Source of the DNA: Methylobacter sp.
GTDB lineage: Bacteria; Pseudomonadota; Gammaproteobacteria; Methylococcales; Methylomonadaceae
Length of the DNA: 64,000 nt
Assembly: GCF_030680395.1 (NCBI RefSeq)
Contig: NZ_JAUXVR010000007.1
Location: 186,001-250,000, forward strand
Direction of reading: 5' to 3'
Positions within the stretch are counted from its first letter, which is position 1. Each line of letters opens with the position of its first letter. Of the stretch, positions 1,357 to 7,120 are shown piece by piece. The notes beneath the pieces were generated by a model. It saw nothing but the letters and a program-made list of their open reading frames with translations. It was not told the origin of the DNA and searched no databases. The position numbers were made by a program, and so were the translations under genes.

Positions 1357-2145
1357 ATGACCGCGATGAAAAAGGGGGCGGATGCTACTGTCGCTATTCC
1401 GGCGGCCGAGGTTCAAGCCGCTCTTGAGTTGATTTTGGCAAGTAGTGTGTTTGTTAACGCACCGCGCATGTGCCGTTTGCTGCGGTTTCTCGGTGAGAAG
1501 GCACTCTTTGGGGAAGCTCAGAATACCAGCGAATATTTTATCGGTATCGAAGTCTTTGATCGCGACCCTTCCGCTTATCGCGCCGGTGACGATCCTGTGG
1601 TCCGGGTTCAGGTCGGTCGCTTGCGTGAAAAACTTAAAACGTATTATGCGACGTTGGGTGCCGGCGCCGACATTGAAATATTAATTCCGACAGGCAGTTA
1701 CATGCCGGTTATTCAACGCAAAAGTGTTGCGGATATCGACCCCAAGCAGTCGGGTATGTTGGCAATCCATCCCTTTAAATGTATTTCGCATCATCGAGAT
1801 GGCGTACATTTCACGCAGGGTTTGAATGAGGAACTTATGCATCAGCTGTTTAAAGCATTTGGAAAAATAATTGTAGCGCATTCATTTTTCACGTCAGGCA
1901 ATGTCGATAACGAAAGCTGGACTTTAAAAGATATTTCCAGTGCTGGAGTAAACCACTTGCTTGAAGGAAGCGTCCAAATTGACGCAGAACGCATTCGAGT
2001 TTCAATCCGCCTGGTTGATGTTTCAGTTGGGTGTATCGCTTGGTCAGAACAATTTGATCGACGTGTTTTTTTTGCCATCTCGCATCAGGAAGAACTTGCC
2101 TCATCTATTTGCAGTGCATTGCAGCGTTTTTTTTGTCGCAAGTAA
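1357..2145 (+). CDS. Regulator-like protein 1: winged-helix-like N-domain plus TolB/FlgO-like (COG5616) domain
   Basis: A 262-residue protein with two recognisable parts. Residues about 20-120 match the N-terminal domain found in many 'adenylate cyclase/TolB-like' regulators: LLRFL (41-45), GIEVFDRDPSAY (63-74), DDPVVRVQVGRLREKL (78-93) and IPTGSYMPVI (110-119). Residues about 135-258 match the COG5616 TolB-like domain: FTQGLNEELMHQLF (152-165), LLEGSVQIDAERIRVSIRLVD (within 201-221) and WSEQFDR (229-235). Typical family members continue with TPR repeats, which are absent. No membrane segment is seen, so it is probably a cytosolic regulator or sensor; its ligand is unknown. ATG 1357 follows AGGGACGAG, and ATG 1366 is a possible alternative. 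It is a tandem paralogue of the gene at 2656, about 60-65% identical by eye. Confidence 0.8.
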   Translation: MTAMKKGADATVAIPAAEVQAALELILASSVFVNAPRMCRLLRFLGEKALFGEAQNTSEYFIGIEVFDRDPSAYRAGDDPVVRVQVGRLREKLKTYYATLGAGADIEILIPTGSYMPVIQRKSVADIDPKQSGMLAIHPFKCISHHRDGVHFTQGLNEELMHQLFKAFGKIIVAHSFFTSGNVDNESWTLKDISSAGVNHLLEGSVQIDAERIRVSIRLVDVSVGCIAWSEQFDRRVFFAISHQEELASSICSALQRFFCRK

Positions 2146-2217
2146 CGGCGTCTGCGGGCATTGTATTTTAAATCACGCCGCCGTGTCCCATGCTACATCA
2201 AGGTTGATCAAACAGTT

Positions 2218-2308
2218 GTTACCGTAACACTGATGAAGGGTTACGGTAACGATACTTACGTTAGACGCCATTATAGCGTTATTGTTTGGCGCGTGATTTT
2301 AATTACTA
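2218..2308 (+). promoter_or_regulatory. Module regulatory element, copy A
   Basis: The element begins with two facing GTTACSGTAAC palindromes (2218-2228 and 2240-2250). It then reads GATACTTACGTTAGA (2251-2265), TATTGTTT (2280-2287) and GTGATTTTAATTACTA (2293-2308). The same order of blocks recurs at 3526-3594 and, inverted, at 6927-6869. Copy A lies between the two regulator genes, about 350-390 bp upstream of the second. The conserved order and spacing suggest a shared operator or promoter, probably a binding site of one of the neighbouring regulators. That function is inference. Confidence 0.6.
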
Positions 2309-2655
2309 ACGTTTCTAAGGTCATTGTTTATTATAAGTTATTGTAAATAAACAACTAAAATCTGCATTTCATGCGCGCGTTACGTGTTTTGACTTGAAAT
2401 GACGATATTTGCTTATACGCCTCTTAAATAAGCCGGGATAACTAATCAGCTTATTTTTTATTAAACCAATCAATATTCATGAGAATTAGTCATATTGTTT
2501 TAAAACAGCATGTCAAATTTAATGGCTTACTCAAATGAATTCCAAAATTTTAGATAATTATTGAATACACTAATTATGGGTATCGTATTTAGAAGTATGA
2601 AAGAACGTTCAAGTCTGCATTTCATAAACGTGATGGGCCGGTAATGAACATCATG
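2309..2655. other. AT-rich leader region upstream of regulator 2
   Basis: This is 347 bp of AT-rich sequence with no plausible gene. The last 30 bp before the start codon resemble the equivalent stretch before the first regulator (shared GATGGG and CATCATGAC). That indicates the tandem duplication included the translation-start region. Confidence 0.5.
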
Positions 2656-3441
2656 ACTGCGGTGAAAAATGGGAAGGATGATGTCGATGCTGTTCCAGCG
2701 GTTGATGTTCGGACAGCCCTTGAGACGATTCTGGCAAGTAGTGTATTTATTAATGCGCCACGCATGTGCCGTTTGTTGCGATTTCTTGTCGAGAAGGCGA
2801 TCTCCGGGGCTGTTCGCGACACCAGCGAGTATGCCATCGGCATAGAGGTTTTTGATAGAGATCCTTCTTCTTATAGTGTCAGTGAAGATCCTGTGGTCCG
2901 GGTTCAGATCGGTCGCTTGCGTGAAAAGCTTAAAGTTTATTACGCGACGTTGGGGTTTGGCTCAGGCATCAAAATATTAATTCCAATAGGCAGTTACATG
3001 CCGGTTATCCAGAGCATGAAAGCAGTGGACATTGATTTCAAGCAGTGTTGCATGTTGGTAATCCACCCCTTTAAGTGTATTTCGCATCGTGGAGATAGCG
3101 TCCATTTCACGCAAGGCTTGAATGAGGAGCTTATGCATCAGCTGTTTAAAGCATTTGGAAAAATAATTGTACCGTATTCTTTTTTCACGTCAGGCGATGC
3201 CGACACTGGAAGCAGGACTTTAAGAAATGGTGCCAACACTGGAGCAAACCATCGACTTGAAGGCAGCATCCAAATTGACGCAGAAAGCATTAGAGCCTCA
3301 ATCCGCGTGGTAGATGTCTCGGTGGGCTGCATTACTTGGTCAGAACAATTTGATCGGGATGCTTTTTTTGCCATTACGCTTCAGGAAGAGCTCGCCTCCT
3401 CTATTTGCGGCTCATTAAAGAGCTTCTTCGGTCATGAATAA
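2656..3441 (+). CDS. Regulator-like protein 2, tandem paralogue of regulator 1
   Basis: A 261-residue protein with the same architecture as its neighbour at 1357: an N-terminal domain with GIEVFDRDPSSY and DPVVRVQIGRLREKL, then a TolB/FlgO-like domain with FTQGLNEELMHQLF, LEGSIQIDAESIRASIRVVD and WSEQFDR. TPR repeats are again absent. ATG 2656 (MTAVKN) was chosen because it aligns with MTAMKK of the first copy; an in-frame ATG at 2644 would add four residues. Divergence is spread along the gene and reading is intact, so both copies look functional. The downstream region is also duplicated: each regulator is followed by a GTTACNGTAAC element. Role inferred: regulation of the neighbouring unknown genes. 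Confidence 0.78.
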   Translation, partial: TAVKNGKDDVDAVPAVDVRTALETILASSVFINAPRMCRLLRFLVEKAISGAVRDTSEYAIGIEVFDRDPSSYSVSEDPVVRVQIGRLREKLKVYYATLGFGSGIKILIPIGSYMPVIQSMKAVDIDFKQCCMLVIHPFKCISHRGDSVHFTQGLNEELMHQLFKAFGKIIVPYSFFTSGDADTGSRTLRNGANTGANHRLEGSIQIDAESIRASIRVVDVSVGCITWSEQFDRDAFFAITLQEELASSICGSLKSFFGHE

Positions 3442-3455
3442 CGGTATTTTCGCGG

Positions 3456-3495
3456 ATGCTGTGCTGCTTTATCCAGGGGCAGTCCGGCACAGCAT
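3456..3495 (+). terminator. Hairpin after regulator 2
   Basis: A 9-bp perfect inverted repeat ATGCTGTGC / GCACAGCAT (3456-3464 and 3487-3495) begins 15 bp after the regulator 2 stop. There is no strong T-tract, so termination is only suggested. Confidence 0.4.
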
Positions 3496-3525
3496 GCTTG
3501 TTTGATAAAGCGGCTGATGCCTAAT

Positions 3526-3608
3526 GTTACTGTAACGATACTTATGTTAGAGTCGGCAAGGTTTTATTGTTTAGCCGTGTGATTTTAATTACTAGATACG
3601 GTAACGAT
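3526..3608 (+). promoter_or_regulatory. Module regulatory element, copy B
   Basis: GTTACTGTAAC followed by GATACTTATGTTAGA (3526-3551) matches copy A at 24 of 26 positions. TATTGTTT lies 39 bp after the first base, and GTGATTTTAATTACTA follows and ends at 3594. A further half-palindrome (TACGGTAACG) lies at 3597-3606. It is about 170 bp upstream of the microprotein gene at 3721 and 345 bp upstream of the gene at 3897, so it probably controls that unit. Binding by the adjacent regulators is inference. Confidence 0.6.
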
Positions 3609-3720
3609 GTCGCACAGTAAGTTGACCTGGATAGCTTGAAAATAAACGCATACCGATCCTGCTTAGTCTGGTTCCATCAACAACAGGCAAAGTAACTAAT
3701 AATTTTTCGTTAGGAAAAAT

Positions 3721-3852
3721 ATGACGGCATACGTTATCAAACGCTTTCAAAATAAAGGCTTAGCTTACAAATTTATTTGGTTTTTTATAATAATTACTTC
3801 GCCGTTATATTTGGCTGACCTTGAGCACTTGCCGGCCACCTGTGAATATTAG
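3721..3852 (+). CDS. Putative 43-residue membrane microprotein
   Basis: An ATG at 3721 preceded by TTAGGA (6-nt spacer) opens a 43-codon frame ending TAG at 3852. The product starts with a basic stretch (MTAYVIKRFQNKGLAYK), continues with a hydrophobic segment FIWFFIIITSPLYL (residues 19-32) and ends DLEHLPATCEY. That is the shape of a single-pass membrane peptide. It lies between regulatory element B and the gene at 3897, with 44 bp separating it from the next start, so the two may be co-transcribed. No homologue is recognised. It could be a leader peptide or chance. Confidence 0.4.
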   Translation: MTAYVIKRFQNKGLAYKFIWFFIIITSPLYLADLEHLPATCEY

Positions 3853-3896
3853 CGACATTAATGAAGTAAAACTCAACTTTAATTTTGGAGATAACA

Positions 3897-4568
3897 ATGG
3901 CAACACCTTACGGCGTCACAATCACTATGAGTGCAAGCACCGTTACAAATCTTATAAACGGTACTTTCAACCTATACGGCTTCAAAGCCGTACAAACTAC
4001 ACAATCGGGGGGCGCGCCGCTCGTTTGGTTTAAAACGTTAAATTATTCAACAACTACTGCTGTTTCCTGGCAGGAGCAGTACCAAGCCTACACGTCCAAC
4101 AGCAGTATCATTGCAAATGGCCAAATTATAGCGAGCAACTCCAACAATATTAACCTTGGCCAAACCATGAATGTTGCTACGGGCGGGATAGGTACCGTGG
4201 TTAATGACGGCACTGATTTGGCTATTTCAATTTTAAACCAAACAACAACTCAATACACATGCGGTATTTCACAAACAGCGACCGACGGCTCAATGAATCC
4301 TCTTTGTGCATTTCCGCTGTATGGCGGTAACATGGATGTTATAGCACCCATCGAGAAAATTTTACTTATGTTCTCCTCTAACCAGATCAACACCGGAACG
4401 GTAATCCAAAAAGCTTACAGCCCCGGTATTTTTATCGATCTGACGGCTAATAATAATGTAAATGTGGCATACGATCTTAACTCGGGTTGGTCGTGGGGCG
4501 GATATTCATGGGCGCAGTCAGTTACGGCTAACGCATCTATGTCTCCATTACTCATCCAATCATCGTAG
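3897..4568 (+). CDS. Unrecognised 223-residue beta-rich protein, paralogue of the gene at 5156
   Basis: Start ATG 3897 has GGAG six bases upstream; an in-frame TTG at 3885 is less likely. The protein begins MATPYGVTITMSAS and has no signal peptide or transmembrane helix. It is rich in Thr, Ser, Asn, Gly and aromatic residues and alternates polar and hydrophobic positions, which suggests an all-beta fold. Blocks shared with the second copy are FNLYGFKAVQ / YTLYGYKAVQ, PLVWF, YSTTT, NQTTTQYTCGI, LCAFPLYG, KILLMF, NTGTV, PGIFIDL and GWSWGGYSWAQ. Two Cys (TCGI and LCAF) are conserved between copies. I do not recognise the family. Isolation from metabolic genes and tandem paralogy suggest an effector, lectin-like or structural protein. 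A perfect terminator follows at 4729. Confidence 0.75.
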   Translation: MATPYGVTITMSASTVTNLINGTFNLYGFKAVQTTQSGGAPLVWFKTLNYSTTTAVSWQEQYQAYTSNSSIIANGQIIASNSNNINLGQTMNVATGGIGTVVNDGTDLAISILNQTTTQYTCGISQTATDGSMNPLCAFPLYGGNMDVIAPIEKILLMFSSNQINTGTVIQKAYSPGIFIDLTANNNVNVAYDLNSGWSWGGYSWAQSVTANASMSPLLIQSS

Positions 4569-4728
4569 ACTGGTTATGCAAAAAACCTCTTTAATTTAGT
4601 ACAAACGCTGAAGAGAATCATTCGGCTATGTTGAAGTAAGAAATCGAGCCAGATTATAAATCCAGCTCGATTGATTTTGCTCCTCTGGTGCTTATTGTAG
4701 ATGTTATTTCAGAGTTGCCTATGTCCTC

Positions 4729-4768
4729 AGCCCCCTCATGGCGTAAGCCATGAGGGGGCTTCCTTATT
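4729..4768 (+). terminator. Strong stem-loop terminator
   Basis: AGCCCCCTCATGGC (4729-4742) pairs perfectly with GCCATGAGGGGGCT (4747-4760) across a GTAA loop and is followed by T-rich sequence. It ends the unit containing the gene at 3897, 160 bp after its stop. Confidence 0.75.
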
Positions 4769-5155
4769 CGGTTTTATCGCGCAAAATACATGCCCATAAC
4801 CATTCTCTGCGTAGGTTGCAATCGGCTGGCGCGTTAATTTAATTTATTTTTAATGCGTTACATCAAACGGTTGCACAACCTGGCTTGGCGGATATTTGCG
4901 GATACGGCGAGTGCCGTGGCGGCAGGAGGAAACCGTTGTTTTTGTAAAAGCCCGCGTTGGACAACCCGGCTAAAAACCACGCAGCCGGTAATGCTTACGA
5001 CGTCCCAGTCGTCCGGCTTCCACAACATTGACGACCCATTAACCCGACGCGATTTCGTAAAGCTTTGCATTTTAGCGACGCAAAAAACCCTACGTGTTAA
5101 CTCTCAGTCTTATCTCTTCTGGGGACTGCTCGATTCCAGTCCGGTAGAGAGTGCC
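4769..5155. other. Intergenic region before the second beta-rich paralogue
   Basis: This 387-bp stretch is open in the frame of the downstream gene back to 4853, but that extension (rich in Arg, Thr and Cys) has no counterpart in the paralogue. It is read here as non-coding leader. No copy of the GTTACNGTAAC element is visible. Confidence 0.5.
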
Positions 5156-5869
5156 ATGTCGAACTCGCCATATAATGTGACGATTAATATAAACATGAAT
5201 GCGGATAGCATTCAAAAGCTACTAGCCAGCCAATACACTTTATACGGGTATAAAGCAGTACAAAGCACCGATAAAGCGGGTAGGCCGTTGGTATGGTTTG
5301 GCACCCAAAGCTACTCAACGACAACTGTCGTCAGCTGTTCTGATGCGTATCAGGTTTACACCTCCAGTAGCCCTATCGTGTCGGGAGAGCAAATAACCGT
5401 CGGCTTTTCAACGGGTATCTTGTGCGGACAAACATTGCAAGTTCTTGATGGCGGGGTTGGACCCGTTGTTAACACGGGAAATCCTGGCGATGTCTCTATT
5501 GCCAACCAAACGACAACAGAATTTACCTGCGGCATAATGCAGGAACAAATTATCAATGGGAATCCTTCGGCTTTTGTACCCTATTGCGCCTTTCCATTGA
5601 ATGGGTTAAATCTCCAGGAAATCAGACCTCTTAATAAAATTCTTTTGATGTTTGCTACGGCAAAGACAAATACCGGCACGGTGGTCGCAGACAATGCAGA
5701 AAGTACAACGCCTCCCGGTGCTAATGGGCCGGGGATAATAATAGATTTTAGCGCGATGTCCTCGTGCACGGTAACGTACGATGTGAATCTGGGCTGGGAC
5801 TGGGACGACTATGCCTGGGCACAACAGATTCCTGCAAATGAGAACCTTACCCCGTGGCTAATCGAATAG
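5156..5869 (+). CDS. Unrecognised 237-residue beta-rich protein, paralogue of the gene at 3897
   Basis: Start ATG 5156 (MSNSPYNVTINI) aligns with the start of the first copy. The protein keeps the order of conserved blocks (LYGYKAVQ, GRPLVWF, YSTTTVVS, NQTTTEFTCGI, YCAFPLNG, KILLMFA, NTGTVV, GWDWDDYAWAQ). It differs by an insertion around NAESTTPPGANG and by three extra Cys (in VVSCSD, ILCGQ and SSCTV). There is no signal peptide or membrane helix. Similarity to the first copy is only moderate (roughly 40-45% by eye), so this is an old duplication, unlike the more similar regulator pair. Function unknown; the family is not recognised. Confidence 0.72.
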   Translation: MSNSPYNVTININMNADSIQKLLASQYTLYGYKAVQSTDKAGRPLVWFGTQSYSTTTVVSCSDAYQVYTSSSPIVSGEQITVGFSTGILCGQTLQVLDGGVGPVVNTGNPGDVSIANQTTTEFTCGIMQEQIINGNPSAFVPYCAFPLNGLNLQEIRPLNKILLMFATAKTNTGTVVADNAESTTPPGANGPGIIIDFSAMSSCTVTYDVNLGWDWDDYAWAQQIPANENLTPWLIE

Positions 5870-6026
5870 CATCGCACAGCTGCTTAAACCAACTTAAAGC
5901 GGGCAGGCTCTTTGATAGCTTGCAGCGGTTGATTATGGTTGTGGTGGGTTTCGGCCATTGCCTCTACCCACTCTACACGCCATCAAAATCGGTTGATGAC
6001 CCCGGAAGACAGGCAACTAAGATTAT

Positions 6027-6764
6027 TTACGCGGGTATTAGCACACCGGGCGCTAAAGGATTCATTTGCCATGGAAACGCATAAAAGCCCGCGCCGGCAA
6101 TGAGTTGAGCCGCAAGCGTCGCAGAACATGCACTTAGGAACGCTTCTATTTCGGCAGCATTATTCGGATTATTTATGACGTTCTGTATGGCTACCAGACA
6201 CGCAGGGTCGGCTAAATTATGCGCATTCAAATAATTGAATACCTGTACGTCAACTGCATTACCGGGATAGTTGCCTCGTTGCGCATCTACAGGCGCTCTA
6301 CAGATATTAACCGGATTCCAGGTCATGATTGAAAAGAAGCCTCCGACTCTCGCTTCCGCATTAACCGCATTATTGAGTATAACTGGCGTCCCCCAGTCAA
6401 AAAAGGCGGCTTCCGGCGCGGCAACAGGATTAGCTTGAAGAGCATTGGCATAATCCAGGACCTGCTGAAGCCAAGGCCGAGGAGGGATTTGGTTGTTAAT
6501 GAAATTAACGACATCGCCAACATTGTTACATGCTTCTGACATTGCAATCATTAAAGGATCCAACACGATATTCAGTATGTTTTGAGGAACGATGTGACCT
6601 TGATGATCTAATACATTAGTTCCTTCTACCAGTCTGTAATTAAAATTACCCGGTCGACCGTGATTAAACAAAAATGAATCGAAATTGTTTCCTGGTAGCG
6701 GATACGGATCCCTATCGCGGTAAAGCGGATTCCATCCGTGTATGTTGTCAGTATTGCCAGCCAT
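6027..6764 (-). CDS. Unrecognised Asn/Pro-rich 245-residue protein
   Basis: It reads leftward from ATG 6764 with GGAGG just upstream, so it is a well-supported translation unit. It begins MAGNTDNIHGWNPLYRDRD, is rich in Asn, Ala and Pro, and has no signal peptide. Landmarks are PRPWLQQVLDYANALQ in the middle and a small, Ala-rich C-terminal half with three Cys. It runs convergently towards the gene at 5156, with a 157-bp gap. Copy C of the module regulatory element lies about 105-165 bp upstream in the matching orientation, which ties it to the regulator/beta-protein module. I do not recognise the family. Confidence 0.7.
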   Translation of the reverse strand: MAGNTDNIHGWNPLYRDRDPYPLPGNNFDSFLFNHGRPGNFNYRLVEGTNVLDHQGHIVPQNILNIVLDPLMIAMSEACNNVGDVVNFINNQIPPRPWLQQVLDYANALQANPVAAPEAAFFDWGTPVILNNAVNAEARVGGFFSIMTWNPVNICRAPVDAQRGNYPGNAVDVQVFNYLNAHNLADPACLVAIQNVINNPNNAAEIEAFLSACSATLAAQLIAGAGFYAFPWQMNPLAPGVLIPA

Positions 6765-6868
6765 AATTTAAGCCTCCAAAAAGTTTTAATATGTAATGAA
6801 AATGAGCGTCAGATACGGGAATATGGAAAGTGGGCTACTCTGCCATCTTGCCCCGTCCGAGCTGCCCC

Positions 6869-6927
6869 CAATCTCGCCTTAAACAATATTGCCTTACCGG
6901 CTTTAAAGTAAGTATCGTTACGGTAAC
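6869..6927 (-). promoter_or_regulatory. Module regulatory element, copy C
   Basis: Read on the minus strand, 6927-6909 is GTTACCGTAACGATACTTA. TATTGTTT then follows at the same distance (39 bp from the first base) as in copy B, and the intervening AAGCCGGTAAGG resembles AGTCGGCAAGG of copy B. It points towards the start of the minus-strand gene at 6764, about 105 bp away. Three copies with conserved internal spacing are unlikely to be chance. The exact function (operator or promoter) is inferred. Confidence 0.6.
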
Positions 6928-6967
6928 AGTCTTTTTCCGCGATCAGGGCCGCCGTCCGACAAGCCAA

Positions 6968-7120
6968 GCTTGGCTGCCTAACCTGAACACTATTCTATTG
7001 CCGGTGGCTGGCGTGTTGCTCATTGCTCTGGTCGGAGGCAAGTTTATGCTGGAGTTTTTCGGTATCGGTAGTCCCTCGTTTCGGATTGCTGGCGGTATCG
7101 TCTGCCGTTACTCATTTTGA
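6968..7120 (+). pseudogene. Fragment of a MarC/YhgN-family membrane protein gene
   Basis: About 45 codons encode LNTILLPVAGVLLIALVGG, then KFMLEFFGIGSPSFRIAGGI. This matches the MarC-family pattern of a membrane helix followed by FFGIS-P-FRIAGG. The match stops abruptly in CRYSF and a stop codon. Upstream sequence in the same frame is not MarC-like, and full-length members are about 200 residues. It is therefore a remnant, probably left when the accessory module to its left was inserted or rearranged. Confidence 0.6.

Follow-up and report, generated by a model that had tools for sequence, protein, structure and literature searches.

The 64,000-nucleotide (nt) stretch analyzed here (Methylobacter genome G000, contig C42, positions 186001-250000; hereafter, the window) carries two tandem regulator genes (reg1 and reg2), two tandem genes for beta-rich proteins (beta1 and beta2), and a convergent gene for an Asn-rich protein, which lie between an M20-family peptidase gene and corA and are accompanied by three copies of a short upstream element (E1 to E3). 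A first-pass annotation, made from the letters alone, had proposed this module as an undescribed effector or surface system under dedicated control.

The regulators, encoded on the plus strand at 1357..2145 (reg1, 262 amino acids [aa]) and 2644..3441 (reg2, 265 aa), are paralogs, as had been proposed, with 186 of 259 residues being identical (72%). In a codon-position comparison with M. tundripaludum SV96 (G019), which covered reg2, beta1, beta2, and the extension upstream of beta2, reg2 showed 19, 13, and 50 mismatches at positions 1, 2, and 3, respectively, a third-position bias as in coding DNA. The TolB/FlgO-type label previously given to these DNA-binding-type proteins is based on sub-threshold profile matches and 30% identity to part of a 539-aa homolog that bears tetratricopeptide repeats (TPRs). 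The C-terminal part is TolB_N-like (PF04052; E 0.018, 15.6 bits vs. a cut-off of 22.4), with two of seven homologs matching at E up to 1, and a check for an N-terminal winged helix gave weak matches to Trans_reg_C in three of seven homologs (best E 0.18, below the cut-off). A profile search of the PDB with the regulators returned two chance matches only. Both proteins stop at 262-265 aa, and the Pfam scan showed no TPRs in them, whereas the relative in genome G037 has TPRs. Among the 61 genomes compared (that of the window and 60 relatives), a TPR-less regulator was present in four, namely, the window genome, G003, G010, and SV96; the fifth regulator match, a 32% homolog in G037, is TPR-bearing and has no element. 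In SV96, an insertion sequence carrying a DDE_3 transposase (L017:5861-6930) interrupts the reg1 ortholog.

The claim that shared upstream DNA ties three of the units together was borne out, with copies of 47-48 bp lying before reg2, beta1, and the Asn-rich gene. E1 (2240..2287, plus strand), in which the GTTACNGTAACGATACTTA core is followed by TTATTGTTT, is located 95 bp after reg1 and 404 bp before reg2, and E2 (3526..3572, plus strand) 85 bp after reg2 and 371 bp before beta1. E3 (6881..6927, minus strand), 163 bp before the Asn-rich gene, matches E2 at 82% over 49 nt, although its nearest regulator is 3.4 kb away. The 11 copies found in four genomes align as GTTACNGTAACGATACTTA, approximately 20 variable bases, and TTATTGTTT; the core is a palindrome, GTTAC-N-GTAAC, then GATACTTA, with TTATTGTTT approximately 20 bp further on. 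Among the 18 specified core positions, all 11 copies agree at 16 and 10 of 11 at the other two, while the flanks differ. E1 to E3 are the only matches with up to one mismatch in the 4.36-Mb window genome, in which a backward-read control gave none for the stricter pattern and one for the looser pattern. With one mismatch, the stricter pattern had 10 matches in three of eight genomes (G010 being outside the eight) and no control match, and the looser pattern, with one mismatch or none allowed, was confined among the 61 genomes to the window genome (three copies), SV96 (three), G003 (four), and G010 (one), each copy being beside a regulator or in the module. The element and TPR-less regulator occur in the same four of 61 genomes; this co-occurrence (four of four vs. 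none of 57) corresponds by hand count to 1 in 521,855 if the genomes were independent, which they are not.

The annotation of beta1 (3897..4568, plus strand, 223 aa), the first gene of a conserved pair, and beta2 (5156..5869, plus strand, 237 aa, start set at 5156) as duplicates was correct: 108 of 234 residues are identical (46%). Mismatches to SV96 at codon positions 1, 2, and 3 numbered 3, 2, and 29 for beta1 and 12, 11, and 41 for beta2, again third-position-biased as in coding DNA. The non-regulator proteins were also rightly placed outside recognized families, with neither the beta nor Asn-rich proteins matching Pfam or NCBIfam up to E 10 and no PDB sequence match being better than E 0.45. 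A comparison of 54 beta members with Pfam at E up to 0.1 yielded three single-member matches (MHC_I_2, 0.02; DUF2187, 0.073; DUF2807, 0.098). The AlphaFold model of the all-beta family, built from an alignment of 49 of the 54 rows (five from plasmid records were dropped here but kept in the tree, which drew on all 54), is confident, with a predicted local distance difference test (pLDDT) score of 95.8, and has no clear match among solved structures; the best Foldseek E value was 0.17, and template modelling scores by query length were 0.20 or lower among the 50 matches listed. No leader was seen in beta1, the model of which starts with a strand at residue 4 (a signal-peptide predictor was not run). 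The beta pair is an undescribed protein family in that it has no Pfam, NCBIfam, or PDB relative; the family is nameless, the literature was approached through its supposed relatives and hosts, and we do not claim that it is unpublished.

The convergent protein (6027..6764, minus strand, 245 aa) is rich in Asn as described, at 13.9%. Its AlphaFold model, made from two alignment rows, had a pLDDT of 34 and was not used. The beta and Asn-rich genes occur in the same three of the 61 genomes, in one shared locus each time. A homolog with 36% identity, sharing the motifs DHQGHIVPQN and WNPVNICRAP, is present on a plasmid of Rhizobium sp. WYJ-E13, with no beta or regulator relative within the 12.5 kb read. 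No Asn-rich match was found in the 24 whole genomes of the non-Methylobacter beta loci described below, a set that contains no positive control, or in 397 other genomes of the same phylum (an even draw from a larger group). On the Rhizobium plasmid (L019:8760-11615), the Asn-like gene is beside two tandem proteins of 438 and 485 aa without a Pfam match, the first of which has a relative that lies close to a radical-SAM gene on a plasmid of Sinorhizobium; records H15, H24, and H25 were examined for this side branch.

What stands behind the element changes between sister species. In SV96, the interrupted reg1 is followed by the gene order of the window, plus a 98-aa gene, with no match in the window, between the third element and the Asn-rich gene. 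On contig C134 of G003 (7.3 kb), a regulator and element precede two beta proteins that are divergent (best E 1.1e-4), another element copy precedes an 85-aa protein and a broken Asn-rich gene, and a broken regulator and element are followed by an intact Evf-family gene (L016:962-1771; PF18270, E 2.1e-30; PDB 2w3y, E 1.2e-9) and then by a 204-aa gene without a Pfam family. The Evf profile matched none of the seven window proteins scanned. In Erwinia carotovora, Evf is under regulation and serves in the infection of Drosophila (PMC7315124). Contig C445 of G003 carries an M20 gene, a regulator, and an element and ends approximately 280 bp after the latter, any cargo being beyond its end. In G010 (L070:2430-8301), a regulator and element at another place are followed by one family in three copies (30-64% identity) and a second related protein pair (32% over 118 aa). 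None of the G010 cargo proteins reached the Pfam cut-off, and a PDB sequence search of the triplicated family also found no relative. Its kinship to the beta proteins was considered and rejected (hhalign probability of 0.13%, no BLASTP relation). Relatives of the triplicated family were noted on Photobacterium, Burkholderia, and Calothrix records.

Outside Methylobacter, the beta pair recurs without the rest of the module. A pattern scan of genome contigs identified 25 loci with beta relatives, SV96 and 24 other organisms; the scan used two peptide patterns from four sequences, and, thus, 25 is a lower bound that favors close relatives. The hosts belong to the Alpha-, Beta-, and Gammaproteobacteria, Sorangium, Acidobacteriota, and Bacteroidota (four phyla). 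In 21 of the 25 loci (20 of the 24 non-Methylobacter loci), the beta gene is immediately followed by a second copy; L023, L041, L042, and L043 have a single gene, the last on a contig that ends approximately 100 bp past its beta gene. The tree unites members from different phyla with strong support (Terriglobia with an alphaproteobacterium, 100/90; Roseivirga with Vibrio penaeicida, 100/100), which fits horizontal spread. First and second copies are strongly clustered on it, with 9 and 5 changes compared with 18.0 and 17.9 after shuffling, and the two G003 proteins group together on a long branch. Beta members were also found on 14 plasmid records (Vibrio, 10; Rhizobium, 2; Skermanella, 2), five of which were examined in context (H1, H2, H3, H5, and H12); the plasmid loci L008-L011 and L020 are outside the counts of 21 of 25 and 20 of 24 above and that of 17 of 24 below.

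In the flanks read, none of the 24 non-Methylobacter loci contained a relative of reg1/reg2 or the Asn-rich gene, and 17 had another regulator upstream, of five kinds: AraC in seven (L029, L031, L033, L036, L038, L040, and L045), XRE-AAA-TPR in four (L024 and L026-L028), HTH_3 in three (L035, L039, and L044), a Ser/Thr kinase-TPR in two (L023 and L034), and a LuxR response regulator in one (L025). No regulator was seen upstream in the other seven (L022, L030, L032, L037, and L041-L043); downstream kinase and LuxR-type matches in L032 and L041 were excluded from the count. Kinds were assigned by Pfam for L023, L024, L025, L034, L035, L036, and L045 and by BLAST similarity for the remainder. The widely conserved unit is the beta pair, and the regulator differs between lineages. 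Several accessory features were noted: beta1 carries or follows an extra N-terminal domain of approximately 98 aa in 10 loci by tblastn (L008, at 6707-7000, L020, L029, L030, L031, L034, L036, L038, L040, and L045), which had no Pfam match where scanned (L008 and L036); a small protein is located between the two beta genes in L027 (10581-10928), L028, and L035; and the Skermanella tandem pair (L009:7001-8499) lies among a peptidase-ABC/HlyD export pair and a non-ribosomal peptide synthetase gene, with other genes between.

Regarding the surroundings of the module, the M20-corA site is variable, being nearly empty in G018 (one 403-aa gene and a gap of approximately 300 bp) and occupied by other genes in G006 and G010. 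The annotated marC remnant was recovered as an open reading frame (ORF) at 6830..7120 (plus strand; PF01914, E 7e-6, profile positions 47-79 of 203), which overlaps E3 and is outside the module. The neighbor described as truncated is a complete M20-family peptidase gene (394 aa) that appears cut only because the window ends within it. The proposed microprotein at 3721-3852 was rejected as a gene; its frame is not maintained in SV96, where its start and most of the frame are lost and the match is 18 aa only. An N-terminal extension of beta2 (in-frame 4853-5155) was also rejected and appears to be non-coding, with even mismatches to SV96 (10, 9, and 8 at codon positions 1, 2, and 3). A known phage origin was dismissed: beta1 and the Asn-rich protein had no match in phage records, and beta2 had three pattern matches in viral contigs, none of which was confirmed as a relative. 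A strong hairpin (4729..4760), detected by self-match and a fold computation, is located between beta1 and beta2; it is very stable, has no clear T-run, has a similar counterpart in SV96, and could serve to cap transcripts of beta1 or to fix the ratio of beta1 to beta2.

Considering these distributions, the proposal of an undescribed system under dedicated control is supported within the genus, where the regulator goes with the element and the beta genes with the Asn-rich gene. As one fixed system it is not supported, the outcome being the one that the first-pass annotation had named as refuting: in the flanks read, the beta homologs of the 24 loci have neither a TPR-less regulator of this type nor the Asn-rich gene beside them, and the Asn-rich homolog of the Rhizobium plasmid has no beta or regulator relative within the 12.5 kb read. 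Within Methylobacter, the module has the look of a regulator/operator locus that is dedicated to a cargo which changes. The explanation that we prefer, with a probability of roughly one half, is an insertion at a variable site, combining a private switch with cargo genes that change, the beta pair being inducible paired effectors. The TPR-less, COG5616-like regulators would bind the element as an operator or promoter, in keeping with the co-occurrence observed. Judging from position, the element may then act on reg2 (as feedback or a relay), the beta1-beta2 unit, and the Asn-rich gene in the window, and in sister species on a small protein with the Asn-rich gene, the Evf-family gene, and another duplicated family. 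Because the beta family recurs in tandem pairs in several phyla, next to regulators that differ from host to host, the pair is probably the functional unit and its controlled expression a recurring theme. We infer that beta1 and beta2 act as a heteromer and that the cargo consists of effectors; as leaderless-looking beta-fold subunits, the two would work together, be released on lysis or ingestion, and most plausibly target eukaryotic grazers or invertebrates. The idea of grazers as targets arises from the Evf neighbor in G003, which fits an effector under dedicated control, from the patchy spread, and from a review that reports gammaproteobacterial methanotrophs as preferentially grazed (PMC4993757).

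A number of points weigh against this preferred explanation. The four genomes represent one genus, and, thus, the co-occurrence is not four independent events. Eight of the 11 element copies follow a regulator by 85-137 bp (44 bp past the altered frame end for the reg1 piece of SV96), and some of the linkage is therefore by descent; regulator-adjacent copies could partly be hitch-hiking, and the G003 counterpart of E3, before the small gene, is approximately 100 bp from a broken regulator. The looser pattern had four backward-control matches in three of the 61 genomes (one in the window genome, two in G006, and one in G029). The G003 beta proteins are only 18-20% identical to beta1; neither first nor second copies form a single clade, with 18 of 51 inner branches open; and the count of 17 of 24 stands without a null, two (L022 and L037) of the seven loci lacking a regulator end short upstream, and an opposite-strand gene is present between the regulator and pair in four Halomonadaceae loci, L029, and L031. 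The proposed effector role leans on a single neighboring Evf gene, which is on one contig of 7.3 kb. Among the genes read beside the module, none was recognized as a secretion gene, nor does the beta fold point to an activity.

The beta pair may instead be a structural or stress-storage protein, such as an inclusion, sheath, or cell-surface filament subunit, that is produced in large amounts under the control of a stress regulator, with no target organism; we regard this as somewhat unlikely. In a bolder form of the preferred explanation, beta1 and beta2 would be the two subunits of a new effector family that spreads horizontally, has a fold unseen in solved structures, and is kept behind a lineage-specific switch, and the Methylobacter regulator-element unit would be a capture platform bringing unrelated anti-eukaryote cargo (the beta pair, the Asn-rich protein, the Evf-family protein, and the G010 family) under one signal; we regard this form as unlikely.

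A selfish or defense-type cassette, in which the element and regulator form a self-duplicating regulatory unit and the cargo are passengers without a joint job, would be consistent with the repeated arrangement reg1-E1-reg2-E2, the broken regulators of G003 and SV96, and the patchy presence at a variable site. However, the ORFs of the window module showed none resembling a transposase, although family scans did not reach every small ORF; the differences between species in beta1 and beta2 are mostly at third codon positions; and E3 is away from the regulators. We consider such a cassette decidedly unlikely. A chance gathering of lineage-specific genes, with the elements as unrelated repeats, might be argued from the separate occurrence of beta and Asn-rich homologs elsewhere and from the scattered control matches of the looser pattern. 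It is already unlikely because the element and TPR-less regulator occupy the same genomes; the single locus shared by the beta and Asn-rich genes in three genomes and the near-invariant core between differing flanks also speak against it, and we judge it to be very improbable.

The beta pair represents an unannotated family, mostly in tandem, in Pseudomonadota, Myxococcota, Acidobacteriota, and Bacteroidota; its model is confident, and the searches found no relative. The 19-bp core element offers a cheap handle on function because it lists putatively co-regulated genes. If the idea of grazers as targets is true, the locus would show methanotrophs arming themselves with swappable effectors.

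Comparisons with known systems place the module as follows. COG5616 denotes TolB/FlgO-type regulators with an N-terminal DNA-binding part and TPRs. The reg proteins align colinearly (30% identity) with the beginning of the G037 protein, which comes from a genome of the same taxonomic order, and share a recognition-helix-like VR...RLR stretch with it; they differ in having only 262-265 aa, no TPR region, and Pfam matches below the cut-off. The match of the beta model to sandwich domains of the Ig/FN3/CNA-B type, such as that of the pilin BcpA (3rkp), had 11% identity and covered approximately one third of the model. PixA/AidA are small, beta-rich, regulated inclusion-body proteins, characters shared by the beta proteins; for none of the 54 beta members did a Pfam family of this kind come up at E up to 0.1. 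Evf (PF18270, 2w3y) is absent from the window locus, and the beta and Asn-rich proteins have no match to its profile, whereas in the sister species G003 an Evf-family gene stands behind the same element.

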